NCBI GenBank assembly: GCA_002067745.1
Contig: MVRU01000023.1
Coordinates: 1 to 35,468 of the forward strand
Source of the DNA: Syntrophus sp. PtaU1.Bin005
GTDB lineage: Bacteria > Desulfobacterota > Syntrophia > Syntrophales > Syntrophaceae
Length of the DNA stretch: 35,468 nucleotides
Direction of reading: 5' to 3'
Numbering within the stretch: the first letter of the stretch is position 1; the number at the start of each line of letters is the position of its first letter. Positions 1,378 through 28,465 of this stretch are shown here, one piece after another. The notes under the pieces are model-generated. The model was given only the letters and a program-made list of their open reading frames with translations, was not told where the DNA came from and did no database searches. Both the position numbers and the translations under genes were made by a program.

Positions 1378-4300
1378 TCATGACCCGTTTATTTGAGCGG
1401 CCTCAAGGCCATGAGAATTTTTACAGTACGAACCCGAGGCTCCAGCCATCCATTTCAGGATGAGCTCCGCCTCATCCTTTTTCCCGTAAGAGGAAAGTTT
1501 TTCACTGATATGTTTCAAGGTGGCTGATAGCGGAATCCCTTTCAGCCTTAACTGCCGGGACAATTCCCGGGCCTGTTCCTCTTTGTCTTCCAGGCAGTGA
1601 ATAACCGCCATCAGAGACAACGCGGGGGGATAGTCAGGCATGTCCCGGAGCAGCTCTTCCAGCGCTGATGAAGCGGCGTTCAGCGAGCCGGCGATCATTT
1701 CACAATAGGCGTAAACATTTACATAGGCTGGCAGCTTGATCCTGGACTCTTTCATGGCTTTGCGTGCAAGCTCCAGCGCCTCGTCGCAACGATCAAGCAT
1801 GATGTAAGCTGAGGCAAGCTGAATGTATATCTCCGGCAACGGATCTCCACAGGATATGGCGGCAATGGTTTTATACCCCGCGGACTCCGGGTTTTCCCTC
1901 AAGAGATCCAGGAGTTCCAGCCAAAGACGGGCGGCTTCATCATATTTCTTCAGCAGTTGGGCTTGCTTTGCCAACTCGTAGACATATTTCATATTCTTCG
2001 GATCACGTTCATACTTCATCCTGCCCAGCAGATAGTACTCTCTGCTTTTCATCCCCTCCCGTTCCGTGTCCAGTTTTCCGTAGTGATGGACGACGATACT
2101 GGATCTGAGGATGGGGATCTTTGCTTGATGCAGTGAATACTCCACCAGTTCATGGACGGGGTTGGAGAACCGGATATTGCTTCTTCTTTTGAAAAGCCGC
2201 ACCTTTGCGCTTGGGATCCATCCCGCTCCCATTTCCTCGGGATATTGTCCGTCATTCGCCGTCCAACCGATGATTCCAAATTTTTCCACATAATTCCTGG
2301 TGGTAATCAGATAAGCTGCCGGGGAAGAGGAAGGCGTTTCAATTAATGTACGCAGTTCTTTAAAATCGCGTGGAGAAAGGACCTCATCGGCATCGAGCAC
2401 AAAAATCCAATCGCCGGTCGCCTGGGCAAGCGAAGCATTGCGGGCCGCCGAAAAATCTCCCGTCCAGGGAACCTCAAATACCTTTGCCCCGAAAACCCTC
2501 GCGATCTCCATGGTCCTGTCCGTTGAACCGGTATCCACAACAATCATTTCATCCACGATATCCCGGACGCTCCTCAAACATGCGGCCAGGTGCTTTTCTT
2601 CGTTTTTCACAATCATGCAAAGCGACAGCGTGCTTTTCTTTGACGGGTTCTCGATTTTCGATGGGCCGATCTTATCCCGCACAGCCATGGCCGCGTTCAA
2701 AACGCCCTCGTCAATGCCGAACAAGGCGAGGGCGTCTTCGATTTTCAGCAGGGCCTCCTTGAGCTTTCCCAGTTGGAGAAGAATGTCAATATATAAGAAA
2801 GCGAGGTTTTTATTCTGTGGATACAGAGAAACGGCTTCCCGGAATTCAGCCTCCGCATTGCGGAACAGCCCCAGGGAAGAGATGGCGGAATAATAAAGGG
2901 AGCTCGAATCGGGTACCGTTGGAGATAACATGAACCCCCTGCGCAGACAGGCAAGGCCCTCCTCCTTCTCGTCGATCCCCCAGAGAAGAACGCCCAGGTT
3001 TGTAGAGGCCTCCCCATAACCGGGATCCACCTCAACGGCCTCCCGAAAATAATCGACGGCCTCTTCTTTTGCTCCGCTCTTATAGGCCAGAACACCTTTA
3101 AGATTCAGCGCCTCCGGGCAACTGCCATTTTGCAGCAGGATTCTCTCCGCATATCCCGCCGCTTCGCCATCCAGCCCTAAGCCTTCCTGGGTGTAACCCG
3201 CGTACTGAAGGCCCTTCAGGTCATTTTTCACGGCCTCGGGCATGGTCCCGACAACGTCCCATGCCTCGGAAAACTGTCCGGATTCCATAAAGAGCCTGAC
3301 CAGTTCAAAATAAACCTCCTTGGAATCGGGAATGAGCTTGATGCAGTTGATGAGCGTATCGACGGCTTGTCCCATCTTCCCCTTCTGGTACAGATCACCA
3401 GCCAGCTCAGTGGCTTTCAATACCGCCAGCTTCTTTCCTTCGGGGCTGGCCGGACCCAGTTCCCACTTTTTGTTAAGAATCTGTCTGTCACCATGGGATT
3501 TTCCGCCTTCAAGACGGTGGACAAAAACATCGCCGGCAATGTAATTCCGATAATCGGCCAGAGCGGCTCTCAAGCAGTAGTCTTCGTCTTCAAAATGCCC
3601 ACTCTCAAAAGTTTCATCAAAAAGGCCGATCTTTTCGACCACCGAGCGCTTAAACAGCAGACAGAATCCGGCTACGCACCTGCAGGGAATCCGTCGGTGC
3701 CGGTATCGCTCCATGAATTTTGCCGCGTATTTATCCAGAAAATCGACAGATCGATAAGAATCGTCCAGGACCTGCTGGATACCGCCGCCGCGATTGGTCA
3801 TGGGTCCGACGATGCCGGCAGCGGAGCATCTGTTGAGGCATTGCAGCATGGAATCCAGCCATCCCCGGCTGACAAGGGCATCCTGATCCAGAAGCACAAT
3901 GTATTCGCCTTGGGCGGCATTGATGCCCTGATTGCGTCCTTTTATCAGTCCGACGTTTTCCCTGTTCTCAATGAGACGACAATCTTTATTTTCCTTGACC
4001 TGACGTTTCAGCCACTTCATCGTGCTGTCCTTGGAATCGTTGTCTACAAAAACGATCTCGTAGGGCCGGCGCGTGTGCCTGCGGATGCTGTTGACGCACT
4101 TTTTGGTAAAATCCAGCCGATTCCGGGTGACGATGACGATGGATACGCTTCCTTTGACGGTTTCGCGCCGCGTCGGGAACGTCGCCGCTCCGTCCGGATT
4201 CTCCTGAAACGCTTCGGGATGCCTTTTAAATTGTTCTTCATACCTGGATACGATTTTCTTCACTTCCGGGTTGCCAGGCTGCTTGAAGTTTGCCTGACTC

Positions 4301-7300
4301 ACCGTGTCCGCTGCATTCTGAAAATCGCCCTGTTCAAGAAAAATCCCGGAAAGAAGCACCAGGGAAGGAATGTGGTGAGGATCCGCCTGCAAAGCCCGCC
4401 GGGCATGGTCGATCGCCTCCTCCAACCGCCTCTGTTTTACCGCAATCGAAGCAAGCTGATAACAGGCTTCGGCAAAATCCGGGTCTCTGCTAAGATCATC
4501 CCGGTAAATGGCGCCGGCCTCCGCGTATTTTTTCTCATCGAGGAGTTGCTCCGGAAGCCGCAGGGCATCATAAGGATGGGCATACCGTGTCCAATCGCCA
4601 TTGACTTCGAGGCTATTCGCTTTTGCGATGAAATAGCTTTCCCCCCGGATTCGCCTCTGGAAAAACCAGGGCCATTCCTCTTCATTTTCACATCGGGCAA
4701 GTGCCATGCGCAGGGGACGGACAACGTTGAGGTTGATGACACATAAGGATAGATCCGCATAAGGGATCCTCTCAACTTCCGGAGCCGAATCCGGTTTGTG
4801 CGCATGAGTAAGGGCCCCATAGTTTCCTGTGGGAACCATCACGGCGACATCGGGATAGCACAGGGCGTATTCCGTCAATGCGGAAAGAATTTCCGGAGAC
4901 GGGGCAAGGCGGGAATCGATCAGCACCAAAAAATCGAATTCATTTTTTTCAAGGGCTTTCAGGATCAGCGCCGAGATCGTTTCGCCGCGGCCCGGGATGA
5001 TGTCTCCGTTATATTTTCTGGCTAAAGCGGCATAACCATATTCGGCACGTGATTTTTTCCCCCCCCTCCCCTTTTCAACGAAACAGACCCGGGGCGTTCG
5101 AATGGCTGTCCGTTCATCAACGGGGATCTCCTCATCCAGCCTGTAGGGTCTCACCTTGATGACCCCATCGGCCCCGACGGAAACCCGGTCGTTTTGCTGA
5201 AGCTTCCGGCGATATTTTTCCTTGTTGACATTCTGAGGGGCGCCGAAGAGATCCGGACGATCCTGCCTTGTCGTTACGCTGCCAAAATGATGGATAAAAA
5301 CATCATTGGCCACGAGCATCCTGTATCCTGCCAATGTGAGCCGCAGGGAAAAATCATCATCGCTGAATCCGTAGCCGCCCTCCCTGCCGTTGGTGGGGAG
5401 ATCGGGATCAAACCCGCCGATTCGCTCAAGAACAGATTTTTTCAATATATTCGCGACACCAACCACTCGATGAATGACGAAGTTGGACCCCTTGTGCCGT
5501 CTGCACCACTCGTCGGCAAATGCATGAAAGGCCTCCACCGTGTCGTACTCCGTCGGCATCATCTGGGGACCACTTACATTGTTCGAACGGGGCCCCACCA
5601 TGGCTATGTCGGGCGCCGATTCCATCTGCCGAATAAAATTTTCGAGCCAGCCCTCGTGTACGATGGCATCATTGGCCACACATGCGATATATTTCCCACG
5701 GGCAAGCGAAAACACATGAATACCGATTTCTTCCACGACCCTGTTCTGAAAATGCCTGATAACACGGGTGTCGGGATGAAAGTCCTTTACCCGCTCAAAG
5801 TACTCGAACGTTCCATCAGCAGAACCGTTGTCAACGAGCAACAGTTCGTACGAACCGTTCGTATAGTGCAGAATGCTTTCCACACACTGCCTCGTGTACT
5901 CCAGTTTATTGAATGCCAGGACGATGATGCTGGTCTCGATTTCCCTTTCCTCAGGGGTGACGGACTCTTCCGTGCATCCCCTTGGATCGGAACATCCTGG
6001 AGACGCCGCCTCTTCGCCCCCCGGGAAATCTGACACGCCGGGGTATGGGTTTCTGGTGCCGGCCGGCGCCGACTCTCCGGGAATGGCGGCAAATCCGAGA
6101 CACTCGAACATATCCTTCAGCCGATGAGACCAGGTATGTTCGGCCAGGGTGCGTTCATAACCGCGACGGGCGATTTCTTCACGCTCCTTGTCGTGCACCA
6201 GATAATAACGGCATTTGTCAATCAATTCCTCCAAAGAGGATGCGACGGCGACCTCTCTGCCGGGTTCATAGTATGCATCCAGATGTCCGGCGGGAATGGT
6301 CAAGAGAAAACCTCGGCAGCCCGGAACTTCAAAGGTCCGTTTCTTTATCTGCCTGGCTGCGAAATCACCGATATCGTTCAGGTTCAGGTTGATTCTGGAT
6401 TGGCGGAAGATTCGCACCATATCCGCTAAAGGCAGGGTCAGATCCTCCTGCCAGTCTGGTCCAAAGGTACCGACAGCCAGGCCGTGTTGCCTCATTTTCC
6501 TGATAATTTCTGAGCGATCGCCTTTTGCGGTCCCGCAAAAGCTGATCCCCCGGCTTCTCGGCGAAAACGGCAATGCGTAGGTGAAGGGATTGAATCCCCA
6601 TTGGGACATCATGATTTTTCTTCCGAAACCTGCGGCGGCATACCGTTGTGCGGAGTCGGGCGACAGGGTGACGATCAGATCCGCACACGCCTCCGAAAGC
6701 GCCAACCCGCCCCCCTGCCGTTCCTCTTGATCGTTCATCCAGAGAACGGTCTGCGTATCGGTTGAACCTGTAATCCGCTTTAAACAGGAACGCACAAACT
6801 CTGCAAAGCCGTCTGAAGAACCGCCATAGAAGAGGATGTCCGGTTTTTCCTTGAGGACGATGTTTCCCAGTTGCCCGCACATGGCTTCAATACCGCTGCG
6901 CCGCGCCTCGGCGGCGCAGTCGTAAAAATGCGCTTCAATATTCTCAAAGCGGTTGAGTGCATCAAAGAGATTCCACCAGACATAGTCGTAGCCCCGTCTC
7001 GCACTGCCGGATGCGTATTTGCTGCCGGCGGCCAGTACCCGGATTGCCGGCTTTCTGCCGATCAGGAACGATGTTCCACGGGCCTTCCGGGCATCAGCGG
7101 ACTTGGAGGAGGCCTCCGTGGACACTCCGCTGATTCTTACCCCTTCATCGGCAGCGGACGCATCGGCGCATGGCTCCACAGGTCTGCCGTTCAGGCGCGC
7201 GGCGTCATAGGTTACGGGATTGCCGCCTGAAAGACCGGCGGCCACTGCAGCCGGATGATGAATATCATTGTGATCAGTCATTTCATGAAGTTCCTCATTC

Positions 7301-7362
7301 AGATCCCGGAGAACACCGGATTGCAAGGCTTGAATGCCGGGATCAAACTCGTTCCAATCCAT
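1378..7362 (-). CDS. giant multi-domain glycosyltransferase with TPR repeats
   Basis: About 1994 residues from ATG 7362; two GTG codons just upstream (7368, 7365) are alternatives. Modules in order: a CgeB/GT-B-like domain (~105-425); a P/G/S-rich linker; a first GT2 domain (~475-700; VDNGSADGT, with ANDA in place of a canonical DxD); a divergent region resembling a degenerate GT2 (~755-910); TPRs (~935-1060); a second GT2 (~1070-1300; VDNDSKDST, LLDQDA); a long TPR array (~1315-1560); a third GT2 (~1575-1770; VDTGSTDRT, VLDADE); and terminal TPRs. No signal peptide or membrane segment is seen, so it is probably cytoplasmic. TPR-fused transferases often glycosylate proteins or build chains stepwise; here flagellin is the obvious candidate acceptor (inference). 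It is the last gene of the minus-strand operon and overlaps the methyltransferase gene upstream by 20 nt. The frame is intact throughout. Confidence 0.9.
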   Translation of the reverse strand: MDWNEFDPGIQALQSGVLRDLNEELHEMTDHNDIHHPAAVAAGLSGGNPVTYDAARLNGRPVEPCADASAADEGVRISGVSTEASSKSADARKARGTSFLIGRKPAIRVLAAGSKYASGSARRGYDYVWWNLFDALNRFENIEAHFYDCAAEARRSGIEAMCGQLGNIVLKEKPDILFYGGSSDGFAEFVRSCLKRITGSTDTQTVLWMNDQEERQGGGLALSEACADLIVTLSPDSAQRYAAAGFGRKIMMSQWGFNPFTYALPFSPRSRGISFCGTAKGDRSEIIRKMRQHGLAVGTFGPDWQEDLTLPLADMVRIFRQSRINLNLNDIGDFAARQIKKRTFEVPGCRGFLLTIPAGHLDAYYEPGREVAVASSLEELIDKCRYYLVHDKEREEIARRGYERTLAEHTWSHRLKDMFECLGFAAIPGESAPAGTRNPYPGVSDFPGGEEAASPGCSDPRGCTEESVTPEEREIETSIIVLAFNKLEYTRQCVESILHYTNGSYELLLVDNGSADGTFEYFERVKDFHPDTRVIRHFQNRVVEEIGIHVFSLARGKYIACVANDAIVHEGWLENFIRQMESAPDIAMVGPRSNNVSGPQMMPTEYDTVEAFHAFADEWCRRHKGSNFVIHRVVGVANILKKSVLERIGGFDPDLPTNGREGGYGFSDDDFSLRLTLAGYRMLVANDVFIHHFGSVTTRQDRPDLFGAPQNVNKEKYRRKLQQNDRVSVGADGVIKVRPYRLDEEIPVDERTAIRTPRVCFVEKGRGGKKSRAEYGYAALARKYNGDIIPGRGETISALILKALEKNEFDFLVLIDSRLAPSPEILSALTEYALCYPDVAVMVPTGNYGALTHAHKPDSAPEVERIPYADLSLCVINLNVVRPLRMALARCENEEEWPWFFQRRIRGESYFIAKANSLEVNGDWTRYAHPYDALRLPEQLLDEKKYAEAGAIYRDDLSRDPDFAEACYQLASIAVKQRRLEEAIDHARRALQADPHHIPSLVLLSGIFLEQGDFQNAADTVSQANFKQPGNPEVKKIVSRYEEQFKRHPEAFQENPDGAATFPTRRETVKGSVSIVIVTRNRLDFTKKCVNSIRRHTRRPYEIVFVDNDSKDSTMKWLKRQVKENKDCRLIENRENVGLIKGRNQGINAAQGEYIVLLDQDALVSRGWLDSMLQCLNRCSAAGIVGPMTNRGGGIQQVLDDSYRSVDFLDKYAAKFMERYRHRRIPCRCVAGFCLLFKRSVVEKIGLFDETFESGHFEDEDYCLRAALADYRNYIAGDVFVHRLEGGKSHGDRQILNKKWELGPASPEGKKLAVLKATELAGDLYQKGKMGQAVDTLINCIKLIPDSKEVYFELVRLFMESGQFSEAWDVVGTMPEAVKNDLKGLQYAGYTQEGLGLDGEAAGYAERILLQNGSCPEALNLKGVLAYKSGAKEEAVDYFREAVEVDPGYGEASTNLGVLLWGIDEKEEGLACLRRGFMLSPTVPDSSSLYYSAISSLGLFRNAEAEFREAVSLYPQNKNLAFLYIDILLQLGKLKEALLKIEDALALFGIDEGVLNAAMAVRDKIGPSKIENPSKKSTLSLCMIVKNEEKHLAACLRSVRDIVDEMIVVDTGSTDRTMEIARVFGAKVFEVPWTGDFSAARNASLAQATGDWIFVLDADEVLSPRDFKELRTLIETPSSSPAAYLITTRNYVEKFGIIGWTANDGQYPEEMGAGWIPSAKVRLFKRRSNIRFSNPVHELVEYSLHQAKIPILRSSIVVHHYGKLDTEREGMKSREYYLLGRMKYERDPKNMKYVYELAKQAQLLKKYDEAARLWLELLDLLRENPESAGYKTIAAISCGDPLPEIYIQLASAYIMLDRCDEALELARKAMKESRIKLPAYVNVYAYCEMIAGSLNAASSALEELLRDMPDYPPALSLMAVIHCLEDKEEQARELSRQLRLKGIPLSATLKHISEKLSSYGKKDEAELILKWMAGASGSYCKNSHGLEAAQINGS

Positions 7363-8479
7363 CACCACGCAACACGGCCACCGGCATCTTCAGGTTACAT
7401 TCCTGGCGGATCTTCCATGCCACCTCGTCGGAATAACTGCCGGCAATGACAAGAACGGCATCCACAGGATCCTCAAACAGGGCCTCAGGGGCAACAACGG
7501 GCAGGTGAGTGGCCGGGGTATACCTTCCCTGTTTGAACGGCGCGGAATCCACTACATACCGGATGCTTCCCGCAATGCCGGTCAGCGCGATCAGGGCCAG
7601 TGCCTGATGTCCCGCTCCCCAGACGGCTACGCGTTTTGCGGCGAATGGTTTCAGATAGGTCATCACTTCGGCTGTGATCTTCTCCTGATGCCTGTGGAAA
7701 TAGGTGATGTCCAATGGCGGACGCTTTTTCACAACGGCGGAAAGGACATAATCATTTCGAAGTTCCTCACAACCTGTCCATTCGAATCCGTTTAGCTGCA
7801 GGGTGGACTGCAGAGTCTCCCTCGTAAAGTAAAGAAGGTGATCGCCGATAAATTCCGAGAATAGTCCGTTCTTCAGCACCATGTCGAAATTCGGCACTTC
7901 AACCAGGCCGACGGCCTGATCCGTAAGGTTGTCATAAAGGGTCCTCAGTGCCGCATTGGGATCGGGCATGTGCTCTAAAAACATCAACAGCAGGAACGCG
8001 TCAAAGGGCCCGTTTTCCAGCAAACCCGTACACCCGCCGGGATAGCCCCGGGCGACATGCAGGCCGGCCTTGAGACACTCAGCGACGGACGTTTCCGAGA
8101 ACTCCAGCCCATAGGCCTGAACCTCCAGCGCCGACAGCAGGGAAAGGAACTCACCCCGTCCGCAGCCGATCTCGATCATTTTCTTTCCACGAAGGGAATG
8201 CTTTCCGATGAAATCAGCAAACTGCCGTGCCTTCTCCTTTTTTATCGCCTCGGAGACCACGGCAGCCCGTATCACTTCCCGATAATAGGGGACCGGTTCG
8301 CCGTTCAGCTGCACCAACCCGCACCCCATGCACTGACAGACCTCCAGGTCCAGCCCCGTCTCGTCGGCCAGATCCGCCGCCGCCGGGAAGTTCTGCGCGG
8401 CCTTCGGCATGTTTTCATACCGGAGCAGGGGTCCTCTGAACAACTCCCGTCCGCACACCCTGCATGCCCGAATTGCCAT
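7343..8479 (-). CDS. SAM-dependent C-methyltransferase, deoxysugar type
   Basis: 378 residues from ATG 8479, chosen because GGGAGAAGG lies just upstream; GTG 8500, overlapping the previous stop, is an alternative. The architecture matches the zinc-containing sugar C-methyltransferase family (NovU/TylCIII type): an N-terminal Cys module (C6, C9, C50, C53), a class I SAM site (IEIGCGRGEF ~102-111), and a C-terminal Rossmann-like domain beginning KRVAVWGAGHQ near residue 280. Known members methylate C-3 (or C-5) of NDP-4-keto-6-deoxy sugars, which would suit the CDP-sugar genes of this operon. Some relatives act on other substrates, so sugar C-methylation is a family-based inference. It overlaps the downstream transferase gene, implying coupled translation. 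Confidence 0.82.
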   Translation of the reverse strand: MAIRACRVCGRELFRGPLLRYENMPKAAQNFPAAADLADETGLDLEVCQCMGCGLVQLNGEPVPYYREVIRAAVVSEAIKKEKARQFADFIGKHSLRGKKMIEIGCGRGEFLSLLSALEVQAYGLEFSETSVAECLKAGLHVARGYPGGCTGLLENGPFDAFLLLMFLEHMPDPNAALRTLYDNLTDQAVGLVEVPNFDMVLKNGLFSEFIGDHLLYFTRETLQSTLQLNGFEWTGCEELRNDYVLSAVVKKRPPLDITYFHRHQEKITAEVMTYLKPFAAKRVAVWGAGHQALALIALTGIAGSIRYVVDSAPFKQGRYTPATHLPVVAPEALFEDPVDAVLVIAGSYSDEVAWKIRQECNLKMPVAVLRGDGLERV

Positions 8480-24179: not shown

Positions 24180-25502
24180 TCAAGAGATGCGCTCTCCGGC
24201 CATGAAGCGGTCGAACACGGTCTGGATATGACTCAGATGCCTGTCATCGATTCCCGGATACACGCCGATAAAGAAGGTGTTGTTCATGACACGGTCCGTG
24301 TTCGTCAGGTCCCCCGCAATGCGGCACGTTACGTTCTCATAGGCTGGGTGACGCAGGAGATTGCCGCTGAAGAGGTTTCGCGTCTCGATGCGGTTGGCTT
24401 CCAGAAAGGCCGTCAGGTCGTTTCGGGAAAAGCCGGCTTCATCCTTTACCGTGATGACATACCCGAACCAGGAGGGTTCGGAATTCTCCGTGCCCCTGGG
24501 AAGGAACAGGCGATCTCCGTGTTCCTGCAGCCTCCCGGTCAGATTCAGAAAATTCTCTCTGCGCACGGAGACGAACCGGTCAAGTTTCGCGAGTTGCGCA
24601 CAACCGACGGCGGCCTGCAGATCTGTGGCTTTCAGGTTATAGCCGATGTGGCTGTATACGTATTTATGGTCATAGCCGAAAGGCAGGGAACCAAACCGCC
24701 CGCTGAAGCGCCTTCCGCAACGGTTGCTTTCCCCCCCCCCACAGCAGCAATCCCGCCCCCAATCACGGAAGGATTGAACGATGCGGGCCAGGTCATCGTT
24801 GTTGGTGGCGACGCACCCCCCTTCGCCCATTGTGATGTGATGGGCCGGGTAGAAGGAGAAGGTGGAGAGGTGACCGAAGGTGCCCGTCAGCTTCCCCCGG
24901 TAGGTCGAACCCAGGGCGTCGCAATTGTCTTCAATGAGCCAGAGCCTGTGCTTCTTCACGAGATCCATGACGGCGTCGAGACAAAAGGGGACCCCCAGAG
25001 TGTGCGCCATCATAATGGCCCTGGTCTTCGGACCGATCGCCCCGGCAAGTCTTTCGGGGATGGCGGTGTAGTCGCCGAGGTTCACATCGACAAAAACGGG
25101 GACCAGTTGATTCTGCACAATGGGGTTGACCGTTGTGGGAAAAGCGCAGGCCGTGGTCAGGACTTCATCTCCCGGCTTCAGGCGGCGATCCTTGAGCCTG
25201 GGGGACGTCAGGGCGGTCAGGGCCAAAAGATTGGCCGATGATCCGGAATTCACAAGCCGTGCATGGGACAACCCCAGATAATCGGCAAACTCTCTCTCGA
25301 AGCGTTGAGCATAACGGCCGGCCGTCAGGTAGAAATCCAGGCCGGCATCGACCAGATTCACGATTTCCTCTTCATCGAAAACCCGTCCGGCATAGTGAAC
25401 CATCTCCTCATCAGGATTGAAGACTTTAGGGGCGAACTTTACCTGATGGTATTCTTTGACAAGGGCCAGAATTTCCGCACGGATTTCTTCAGCAGTTCTC
25501 AT
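24180..25502 (-). CDS. rfbH: CDP-4-dehydro-6-deoxyglucose 3-dehydrase (E1)
   Basis: 440 residues from ATG 25502, overlapping the rfbG stop as ATGA. It belongs to the DegT/AHBA aminotransferase fold, but the PLP lysine is replaced by His (YPAHHIT, H221), as in enteric E1. A [2Fe-2S] set with the exact spacing C-x57-C-x1-C-x7-C is present (C194, C252, C254, C262), within EDNC and [13 protein letters not shown]1 uses PMP to dehydrate C-3 of CDP-4-keto-6-deoxyglucose and needs an E3 reductase (AscD/DdhD) to finish 3-deoxygenation; no E3 gene lies in this window. With rfbF and rfbG it commits the pathway to a CDP-3,6-dideoxy sugar. Confidence 0.95.
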
Positions 25503-26638
25503 GAATACACCACCGCCCCGGAGAGAATTGCCTCAACGTCCGGATCCGGATGCTTTCCGGCGGCCTGATTCATGTAGTCCCGGATCTGTTCAATGCAGAG
25601 AGCGGAAAGATCGCGGTCCTGCCCTTGCCGGTAGTAGTTCCGGTACCATTGGACCGTCATTCGGATACACGTGTCAACGGAAAGAACATTGTGCCAGCTG
25701 AGCTCGGCATGGGCCTTGTCACAATTCAGCCTGAGAAGTTTCGCCTCATGAGGTGATCCGGGATCGGAGATATCCACCCGGACGCCCTCTCCCCAGAATT
25801 TGATCAGGAGGTCCGTCAATGCGAGGACTGTCAGATGGCCTGCGTCGTCGGGTCCAAAATTCCAGGCCCCGGAATACTTTTCAGGATTTTTTGAAAGACA
25901 GGCGCCAAGAAGAAGATACCCGCCGAGTGCTTCCAGGACATGCTGCCAGGGCCTGACGGAATGTGGGTTGCGGAGAAAGATGGGTTGGTGACGGCTCAAA
26001 GAGCGAATGCAGTCGGGAACAAGTCGGTCCACCGCCCAATCCCCTCCCCCGATCACATTGCCCGCACGGACGGAGGCAGCACCGATAGGCCTGTCATGGC
26101 CGCCGCCTTTTGAAAAATACGATTTCAAATAGGCATTGAAGACCAGTTCCGCGCAGCCCTTGGAGGCGCTGTAGGGGTCAGGACCGCCCAGCGGGTCAGA
26201 TTCCCTGTAGCCCCAGACCCGGTCCCTGTCCGCATAGCATTTGTCGCTGGTGACATTGACCAAAACTTTGACGCTGGAGGTGTTGCGGACAGCTTCCAAA
26301 AGGTTCACCGTGCCGCCGACATTCGCATCGAATGTCATTTTCGGCTCCCGGTAAGAAAAGCGCACAAGGGGCTGAGCGGCAAGATGAAAGACAAATTCCG
26401 GCTGATATCTGGTGAAAGTATCCAATAACCGGTCGAGATCACGGATATCGCCGCGAATATCCGTGATTTTTTCCCGGAGATTCGTCGCCTCGAAATTGTT
26501 GGGCTGGCTTGGAGGATCAAGGGAATATCCGACGACATCCGCGCCCAGTTCCCTGAGCCAGAGGGCCAGCCAGGATCCCTTGAAGCCTGTATGGCCAGTG
26601 ATCAATACGGTTTTGTTTTTGTAAACGTCATGAAACAC
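25499..26638 (-). CDS. rfbG: CDP-glucose 4,6-dehydratase
   Basis: 379 residues from GTG 26638; GGGGA about 9 nt upstream is the likely ribosome site. Extended SDR with [17 protein letters not shown] (the GHTGFKG form typical of CDP-glucose dehydratase), [41 protein letters not shown] (active-site Y-x3-K) and [12 protein letters not shown]. It forms CDP-4-keto-6-deoxyglucose from the RfbF product. It is the first gene of the minus-strand operon and lies ~105 nt downstream of the predicted start from a sigma-54 type promoter. Confidence 0.95.
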
Positions 26639-26754
26639 GTTTTCGTTTCCCCGAGATAGTATGTCTTCAAGAAGATCACGGTTGAAGCAGCCGTTTTAAA
26701 CCAGGGATTCAACCCTTTATCTGTGAAAAAAGTCACTCTGGTACTGCTGAATTG

Positions 26755-26770
26755 AGCAATATTGGTGCCA
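26755..26770 (-). promoter_or_regulatory. sigma-54 promoter for the sugar operon
   Basis: On the minus strand the site reads TGGCACCAATATTGCT, matching the RpoN consensus TGGCAC-N5-TTGCW at every position with correct GG-N10-GC spacing. Initiation would fall near 26744, about 105 nt before the rfbG start. Sigma-54 drives middle flagellar genes in many deltaproteobacteria, so the operon would need an enhancer-binding activator such as a FlrC/FleR-like protein (not in this window). Confidence 0.8.
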
Positions 26771-26780
26771 TTTTATTTTC

Positions 26781-26807
26781 TAAAGTTTGCCGGGCTTGTT
26801 CCGATAA
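26781..26807 (+). promoter_or_regulatory. sigma-28 (FliA) promoter for the TPR/Ig gene
   Basis: TAAAGTTT at 26781-26788, an 11-nt spacer, then TCCGATAA at 26800-26807. The FliA consensus is TAAAGTTT-N11-GCCGATAA, so only the first base of the -10 differs. It lies 10 nt from the opposite-facing sigma-54 site. Initiation would fall about 6-8 nt past the -10, at or next to ATG 26815. Confidence 0.85.
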
Positions 26808-26814
26808 TATCAGC

Positions 26815-28023
26815 ATGGAAATACAAACCGCCGCCACGCAGACCAATGCCGATCTTCTTTTTTCTTCGACCACGCCAACGGCCGCCAATATGGAGTTCAT
26901 CTCCGGCCAGGCCCTGTCGCGAGGCATTGATGCGTATTCCAGCGGCGACTACAGGAGGGCTGCCCGGGAATTCAAGCTGGCCATTTCTTTTGAGCCCTAT
27001 TCGTACAACGCGCTCGATGCCTTCCAGTATCTGGGGGTTGCCCTCGAAAGCGACGGCGACGTGCGTGGCGCGATGAGGGCCTATCGCGAGGCCATCGCCT
27101 TATTCCCCACGGAAAGCGGGTTCAACGTCAGCCTTGGAAACCTTCTGTTTTCAGAGGGGAAGCACGAGGAGGCGCTGCAGCAGTACAACGACGCCATCAA
27201 AAAAAACCCGGCGGACAGCGAGATTCACTATGCCCTGGGTCAGGCCTATCTGACCTTGGAGAAGTTTGATCAGGCGGAGGAGCAGTTTCAAAGGGTCATC
27301 CAGATGTCCCCGAAGGAGACCGCCGGCTATTATGCCCTGGGGCAGGCATACCGGCAGCAGGGAAAATTCAAGGAAGCGGAAATGCAGCTGGGAAAGGCCC
27401 TGGCCATCGAGCAGGATTTTGCCAATGCCCATTATGAGCTTGGGTTGCTTTATGCTGAGACGAAGCAGATCGACAGGGCAAATGAGGAGCTCGAATTTCT
27501 TGCCGCAAACGCGGGAAGGGGTTCCGATTTTTATTCCAACCTGGATTTCACGATCGACGAACATACCGCCCCCAGGTTCATTGCCGCCTACAGCGCTCAG
27601 CTCAATCTCGCCTCAGGACCGGGCACCCGGGTGTCAACCCTCGATAACTCCCTTAAAACACCCGGCGAAAGCAAAAATTATACGATATCCTTTGCCTTTG
27701 ACAAAGAGATGGACACGACCTCCGTCCAGAACATCTCCAACTGGGACATCAGCAGGTCCACCAGTACATCGACCGGCGGTCTCTACAACTGGGGCTTCAA
27801 GACGAGTTCCACAGAAATCGACCTGTCCGCAAGGCCCGTCAACGTGATTTACGATTCCAAAACGCTGTCCGCCAAGGTCAGCTTCAAGGTTACCCAGAAT
27901 GCTTCCGGCAACGGGACAGTCGACCTTTCGCACCTCGTGTTCAAGTTTCAGGGAAAGGACATCTACGGGAATTCCATGGATCCTTCGGCGGATCAATACA
28001 ACCGTTTGTCGCTGGTCGTATAA
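26815..28023 (+). CDS. TPR protein with C-terminal Ig-like domain, flagellum-linked
   Basis: 402 residues from ATG 26815. An in-frame TTG at 26752 is rejected because the sigma-28 promoter lies between it and 26815; a later ATG at 26890 is possible. Residues ~27-230 are a run of TPRs, with repeats such as EALQQYNDAIKKNP and QAEEQFQRVIQMSP. From ~245 a beta-rich domain (ISFAFDKEMDTTSVQNISNWDIS) resembles SbsA/Big_5 Ig-like domains. There is no Sec signal peptide. The gene sits where fliK is often found upstream of flgD and has a late-class promoter, suggesting a flagellar protein, perhaps an assembly factor or a substrate of the flagellar export apparatus. Function unknown. Confidence 0.85.
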   Translation: MEIQTAATQTNADLLFSSTTPTAANMEFISGQALSRGIDAYSSGDYRRAAREFKLAISFEPYSYNALDAFQYLGVALESDGDVRGAMRAYREAIALFPTESGFNVSLGNLLFSEGKHEEALQQYNDAIKKNPADSEIHYALGQAYLTLEKFDQAEEQFQRVIQMSPKETAGYYALGQAYRQQGKFKEAEMQLGKALAIEQDFANAHYELGLLYAETKQIDRANEELEFLAANAGRGSDFYSNLDFTIDEHTAPRFIAAYSAQLNLASGPGTRVSTLDNSLKTPGESKNYTISFAFDKEMDTTSVQNISNWDISRSTSTSTGGLYNWGFKTSSTEIDLSARPVNVIYDSKTLSAKVSFKVTQNASGNGTVDLSHLVFKFQGKDIYGNSMDPSADQYNRLSLVV

Positions 28024-28290: not shown

Positions 28291-28306
28291 TGGCATCCCT
28301 TTTGCT
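28291..28306 (+). promoter_or_regulatory. sigma-54 promoter for flgD-flgE
   Basis: TGGCATCCCTTTTGCT has the GG-N10-GC spacing of RpoN promoters and differs from TGGCAC-N5-TTGCW only at the sixth base (T for C). It lies 160 nt before the flgD start, giving a leader of about 145-150 nt. Hook genes are classic sigma-54 targets, which supports it. Confidence 0.72.
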
Positions 28307-28465
28307 CAACGCACCTTCAGAACGGATTGAAGGAAAAAAGGAAGAAAAGCGAGAGCCGGCCGGATCCATTCCGTTGTTCTGTTCACGCCAAAAAACTGAA
28401 AATCGAGAAGGTCTTCTACGGATAATGACTGCTGCCGTTACGGGAAGATCGCCGAGGAGGAGAAA

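Follow-up and report, generated by a model that had tools for sequence, protein, structure and literature searches.

Divergent sigma-54 and sigma-28 promoter elements between a glycan operon and a TPR gene of Syntrophus: probable sequential use and a predicted leaderless late message

How two promoters read by different sigma factors are used when 10 nt separate them is the question raised by an intergenic region of Syntrophus sp. PtaU1.Bin005, in which a sigma-54 element and a sigma-28 (FliA) element face outwards, towards an operon led by rfbG and towards a gene encoding a TPR protein, respectively (Table 1). The window analyzed here is the whole 35,468-nt stretch of contig MVRU01000023.1. 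A preliminary description of this DNA had reported a perfect RpoN site and a one-mismatch FliA site, back to back and 10 nt apart, and had proposed that polymerases bound at both would crowd each other, making a switch between glycan production as the middle class and a TPR/Ig gene as the late class.

Table 1. Coordinates of the features discussed, as positions in the window.
Feature	Position	Strand	Description
Sigma-54 (-24/-12) element TGGCACCAATATTGCT	26755-26770	minus	0 mismatches to TGGCAC-N5-TTGCW; putative promoter of the rfbG-led operon
Sigma-28 (FliA) element TAAAGTTTGCCGGGCTTGTTCCGATAA (TAAAGTTT-N11-TCCGATAA)	26781-26807	plus	Putative promoter of the TPR gene
Candidate regulator site TGTGAAAAAAGTCACT	26722-26737		GTGA-N6-TCAC palindrome; predicted at about +5 to +25 of the sigma-54 transcript
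Interval from -10 to ATG	26808-26814	plus	7 nt; predicted leaderless mRNA
TPR protein	26815-28023	plus	402 aa; superhelical TPR domain (about 23-250) and beta-rich C-terminal domain (about 255-395)
rfbG, CDP-glucose 4,6-dehydratase	25499-26638	minus	TIGR02622, 472 bits (cut-off 278); first gene of the divergent operon
Remainder of the sugar/glycan cluster	1378-25502	minus	25-kb same-strand cluster with rfbG
flbT and flaF	603-1365	plus	Pfam; immediately before the TPR gene in the island-free relative G009
Sigma-54 promoter of flgD-flgE-flgK-flgL	28291-28306	plus	1 mismatch; core identical in G002

Both elements are present as described: TAAAGTTTGCCGGGCTTGTTCCGATAA departs at a single position from the sigma-28 consensus TAAAGTTT-N11-GCCGATAA, the sigma-54 element is perfect, and the coordinates bear out an outward-facing pair with a gap at 26771-26780. 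Shuffling the window 300 times with its dinucleotides preserved gives expected counts of 0.037 for perfect sigma-54 sites and 0.003 for sigma-28 sites within one mismatch (spacer of 11 or 12). Genome-wide pattern searches at looser thresholds gave no enrichment, with 58 sigma-54 matches at up to one mismatch against 67 in a reversed-pattern control, and 18 sigma-28 matches at up to three mismatches against 25 in the control. Since loose matches do no better than controls, the case for both sites is made by near-perfect match, position and conservation together, and not by the motif alone. The genome encodes both RpoN (PF04552, 223.5 bits) and FliA (TIGR02479, 253 bits for a cut-off of 189.6). 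Among its other perfect sigma-54 sites, one lies upstream of a gene named by eye as ammonium-transporter-like, and ammonium-transporter genes are classical sigma-54 targets. The sigma-28 consensus of Bdellovibrio, TTAAG-N16-CCGATA, agrees with the relatives that have an N12 spacer here (PMC3627812). The only perfect sigma-28 site of the genome is found elsewhere, at L032 (G000 C19:28196-28222, minus strand), 349 nt before a CHASE2-like open reading frame named by eye; no Rfam family was detected between the two, and the interval may hold a small RNA or a long leader. An Rfam search of the window returned nothing.

Comparison with a congener (G002), whose TPR protein is 74% identical to that of the window and adjoins the first glycan-cluster genes in the same order, suggests that both promoters are functional. 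The sigma-54 element is identical at 14/16 positions (88%), with 39-60% identity in nearby non-element DNA, and identity reaches 88% in the sigma-28 -10, 75% in its -35 and 86% in the 7 nt ahead of the ATG. The 10-nt gap is also present in G002, the DNA between the elements having drifted. Since the only gap in the intergenic alignment is one of 2 nt, retention of the spacing argues only weakly for selection on it. The sigma-28 site of G002 is weak (12/16, a score reached in 10/200 shuffles). A perfect sigma-54 site also precedes an RfbG-like gene in a further relative, G041/L109.

With the TPR protein alone as query, no named relatives were found, and the family was gathered by searching relatives and by running a profile (A3) against GTDB genomes, which yielded at least 125 loci, from Desulfobacterota and Nitrospirae. 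A sigma-28 promoter (score of at least 13.5 out of 16.5) lies upstream of 47 of the 74 family members with readable upstream regions, where shuffles expect 0.2; the relatives are not independent, and the count overstates the number of events. It is thus very probable that TPR genes of this family are, as a rule, late flagellar genes, although about a third of the 74 regions lack a strong sigma-28 site. Where neighbors are recognizable they are flagellin, FlbT, FlaF, hook or glycan genes, and many family loci have none of these reference genes nearby. The TPR part of the preliminary name stands: Pfam TPR matches occur in 16/16 members examined, the AlphaFold2 model (mean pLDDT 92) combines a TPR superhelix with a beta-rich C-terminal domain, and the PDB structures that it matches belong to TPR proteins, among them OGT, PilF and MamA. 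The Ig part was not confirmed, since all Pfam matches are of the TPR type and TPR proteins make up the top 50 matches listed by Foldseek, leaving the C-terminal domain beta-rich and unnamed. These results place an unnamed, widespread TPR family in the late, sigma-28 class of flagellar genes.

Sigma-54 sites with at most one mismatch lie on the opposite strand in 10/74 of the same upstream regions, a count likewise inflated by relatedness, against about 0.4 expected (scaled from the window shuffles); on the same strand there is one. The genes behind these divergent sites belong mostly to sugar or glycosylation-type operons and sometimes to fliK-flgD-flgE. They comprise RfbG (window, G002, G041/L109), PseB-PseC-NeuB/PseI (L123, L164), radical SAM, methyltransferase and glycosyltransferase genes (L113), a large TPR glycosyltransferase (L138), an FkbM-like gene below cut-off (L132) and fliK-flgD-flgE (L150, L157; FliK named by eye). 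Different sugar operons thus occupy the same place beside the TPR gene, in fewer than ten independent events, and the recurrent divergent promoters tie the family to flagellin-glycosylation-type sugar operons in Desulfobacterota and Nitrospirae. The earlier assignment of the glycan operon to the middle, sigma-54 class and of the TPR gene to the late, sigma-28 class, read from divergent promoters, is supported. The 10-nt gap is confined to the species of the window and G002; elsewhere the elements stand 85 nt (G041/L109), 132 nt (L164), 165 nt (L132), 182-184 nt (L138, L123), 198 nt (L113) and 216-217 nt (L150, L157) apart. In G009, L110, L111 and L112 the sigma-28 promoter is retained with no sigma-54 partner.

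Besides rfbG, the glycan cluster contains rfbH, rfbF, an epimerase, a NeuB-type synthase, a TPP enzyme, FkbM methyltransferases, a large TPR glycosyltransferase, and carbamoyltransferase-like and radical SAM genes (both named by eye). Its far end abuts flaF (1365/1378), flgD-flgE-flgK-flgL follow the TPR gene, and from this position we infer that the cluster acts in flagellin glycosylation. The gene adjoining flaF (1378-7368) encodes a 1996-aa glycosyltransferase with TPR repeats, whose relatives also lie by flaF in L088, L090 and L095, which suggests an FlmG-like flagellin glycosyltransferase. At the other end of the region, positions 28291-28345 hold the flgD sigma-54 promoter followed by a G002-conserved, partly palindromic stretch around CTTCAGAACGGATTGAAGG; this is a position at which activators of flagellar genes, FlrC among them, can bind. 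The contig begins (1-600) just downstream of the place taken by the flagellin gene in relatives. No flagellin other than FlgL was found in the assembly, probably because of an assembly gap. In G009 the gene order is flagellin-u89-FlbT-FlaF-TPR. This relative carries the sigma-28 promoter but lacks the island, so the simplest account of the tight junction is that the glycan island arrived beside an existing late promoter, the alternative being loss of the island in G009.

The most unusual feature of the locus, missed by the preliminary description, is the placement of the TPR start codon 6-7 nt past the sigma-28 -10. The distance is exactly 7 nt in the window, G002, G009, G041/L109, L110 and L111, and 6 nt in L112, and no Shine-Dalgarno sequence precedes the TPR ATG in these seven closest species. 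On both grounds, the TPR mRNA is predicted to be leaderless in all seven. The start codon is secure, since Phe16, invariant in a 16-sequence alignment, precedes the next methionine (26), and G002 and G009 have no earlier in-frame start. In most other relatives the promoter lies further upstream and the leader is longer, and the ATG often follows a Shine-Dalgarno-like sequence; the interval is short (5-11 nt) in L139, L143, L151 and L167, two of which have a purine-rich motif. The sigma-28 -10 motif of C. jejuni, CGATwt, lies 6-8 nt ahead of the transcript start (PMC3847290), and by analogy a start is predicted here at 26813-26816 on the plus strand. If the prediction holds, a sigma-28 promoter and a start codon are fused at a near-fixed distance across seven species. 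A literature search found no report of a leaderless flagellar gene transcribed by sigma-28, which does not prove that none exists.

Taken together, these observations lead us to regard the region as probably a divergent intergenic region of an ordinary kind, used at two steps of the flagellar hierarchy, with promoters that fire sequentially and independently, owe their closeness to the island and include one for a leaderless late message. Sigma-54 polymerase, opened by an enhancer-binding protein, would transcribe the glycan operon leftwards alongside the hook genes, and flgD, with its own sigma-54 promoter, would be expressed in the same middle step. Later, after export of the anti-sigma factor, sigma-28 polymerase would transcribe the TPR gene rightwards together with flagellin, the transcript beginning at the ATG or within 2 nt of it and being translated without a leader. 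The two promoters would then be used one after the other without reference to each other, and would have come to lie close together when the glycan island landed between flaF and a TPR gene already driven by sigma-28. RpoN-dependent flagellin-glycosylation enzymes are established in H. pylori and C. jejuni (PMC3930126, PMC5368276), and in Caulobacter glycosylation components are expressed ahead of the secretion chaperone FlaF (PMC7591256).

The proposed crowding switch, in which the two holoenzymes cannot occupy the junction together, sigma-54 holding the TPR gene back early and sigma-28 shutting the glycan operon down late, is unlikely. It draws on the 10-nt gap and its retention in G002, and on the predicted starts: the 8-13 nt rule (PMC3847290) puts the sigma-54 start at 26742-26747 on the minus strand, so the two would be about 70 bp apart. 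Judging by typical holoenzyme footprints, the stretches contacted by the two polymerases could have anything from a few to about 20 bp in common, and promoter interference is for that reason possible within the genus of the window. The overlap distance that a promoter-occlusion switch would conserve is nonetheless not conserved: the gap of 10 nt is limited to the species of the window and G002 and widens to 85-217 nt in the other genomes with both promoters, several close relatives lack the sigma-54 site, spacing kept across an alignment with one 2-nt gap says little, and the timing of the flagellar hierarchy already accounts for sequential use. A literature search on sigma-54 promoter interference gave nothing bearing on this case. 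A stronger version confined to the genus, in which either holoenzyme, once at the 10-nt junction, physically bars the other and the arrival of sigma-28 both starts the leaderless message and stops glycan-enzyme synthesis, seems to us slightly less likely again; if true, it would amount to a one-way checkpoint written in promoter spacing.

Somewhat more plausible, if still doubtful, is that the main added control over the glycan promoter comes from a regulator bound at the GTGA-N6-TCAC palindrome and not from crowding, a reading compatible with sequential use. The block is palindromic, lies just downstream of the predicted sigma-54 start and is identical to G002 at 19/21 positions (90%) amid drifting DNA (39-54%), but it occurs only in the window and G002, and such a palindrome turns up in 31/100 shuffles of a window-size sequence, so that chance is not an unlikely source. 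As a general flagellar activator site the palindrome was rejected: a pattern search found no other copy with 0-1 mismatch in the genome, and there is none at the flgD promoter. Least likely of all is that one or both promoter motifs are spurious and other promoters drive the genes. The failure of looser matches to exceed controls and the weak sigma-28 site of G002 would fit such a coincidence, yet near-perfect sites are rare in shuffles, both are conserved between species, and they recur across the TPR family.

The locus has several partial parallels. Helicobacter and Campylobacter have no counterpart of the TPR gene that is known to us. The flagellar hierarchy of these genera resembles the arrangement here in assigning hook and flagellin-glycosylation genes to sigma-54 and late filament genes to sigma-28 (PMC3930126, PMC5368276), whereas here a sugar operon and the late TPR gene are read outwards from a single short region. 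In E. coli, flgAMN and flgBCDEFGHIJ also run outwards from one intergenic region with the involvement of sigma-28 (PMC12781870), but the pair described here combines sigma-54 with sigma-28 and drives other genes. Leaderless mRNAs of Campylobacter and Helicobacter (PMC3847290) and of Leptospira (PMC5243855) resemble the predicted TPR message in having a -10 directly before the ATG, in lacking a Shine-Dalgarno sequence and in being gained or lost between related species; those reported in C. jejuni carry sigma-70 -10 elements (PMC3847290), whereas the -10 here is of the sigma-28 type. Caulobacter FlmG offers a further likeness, with a TPR domain that binds flagellins and glycosylation components made early (PMC7591256). 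Flagellin binding by the TPR protein is on this account a reasonable guess. FlmG is a TPR-glycosyltransferase, and no glycosyltransferase domain is present in the TPR protein described here.
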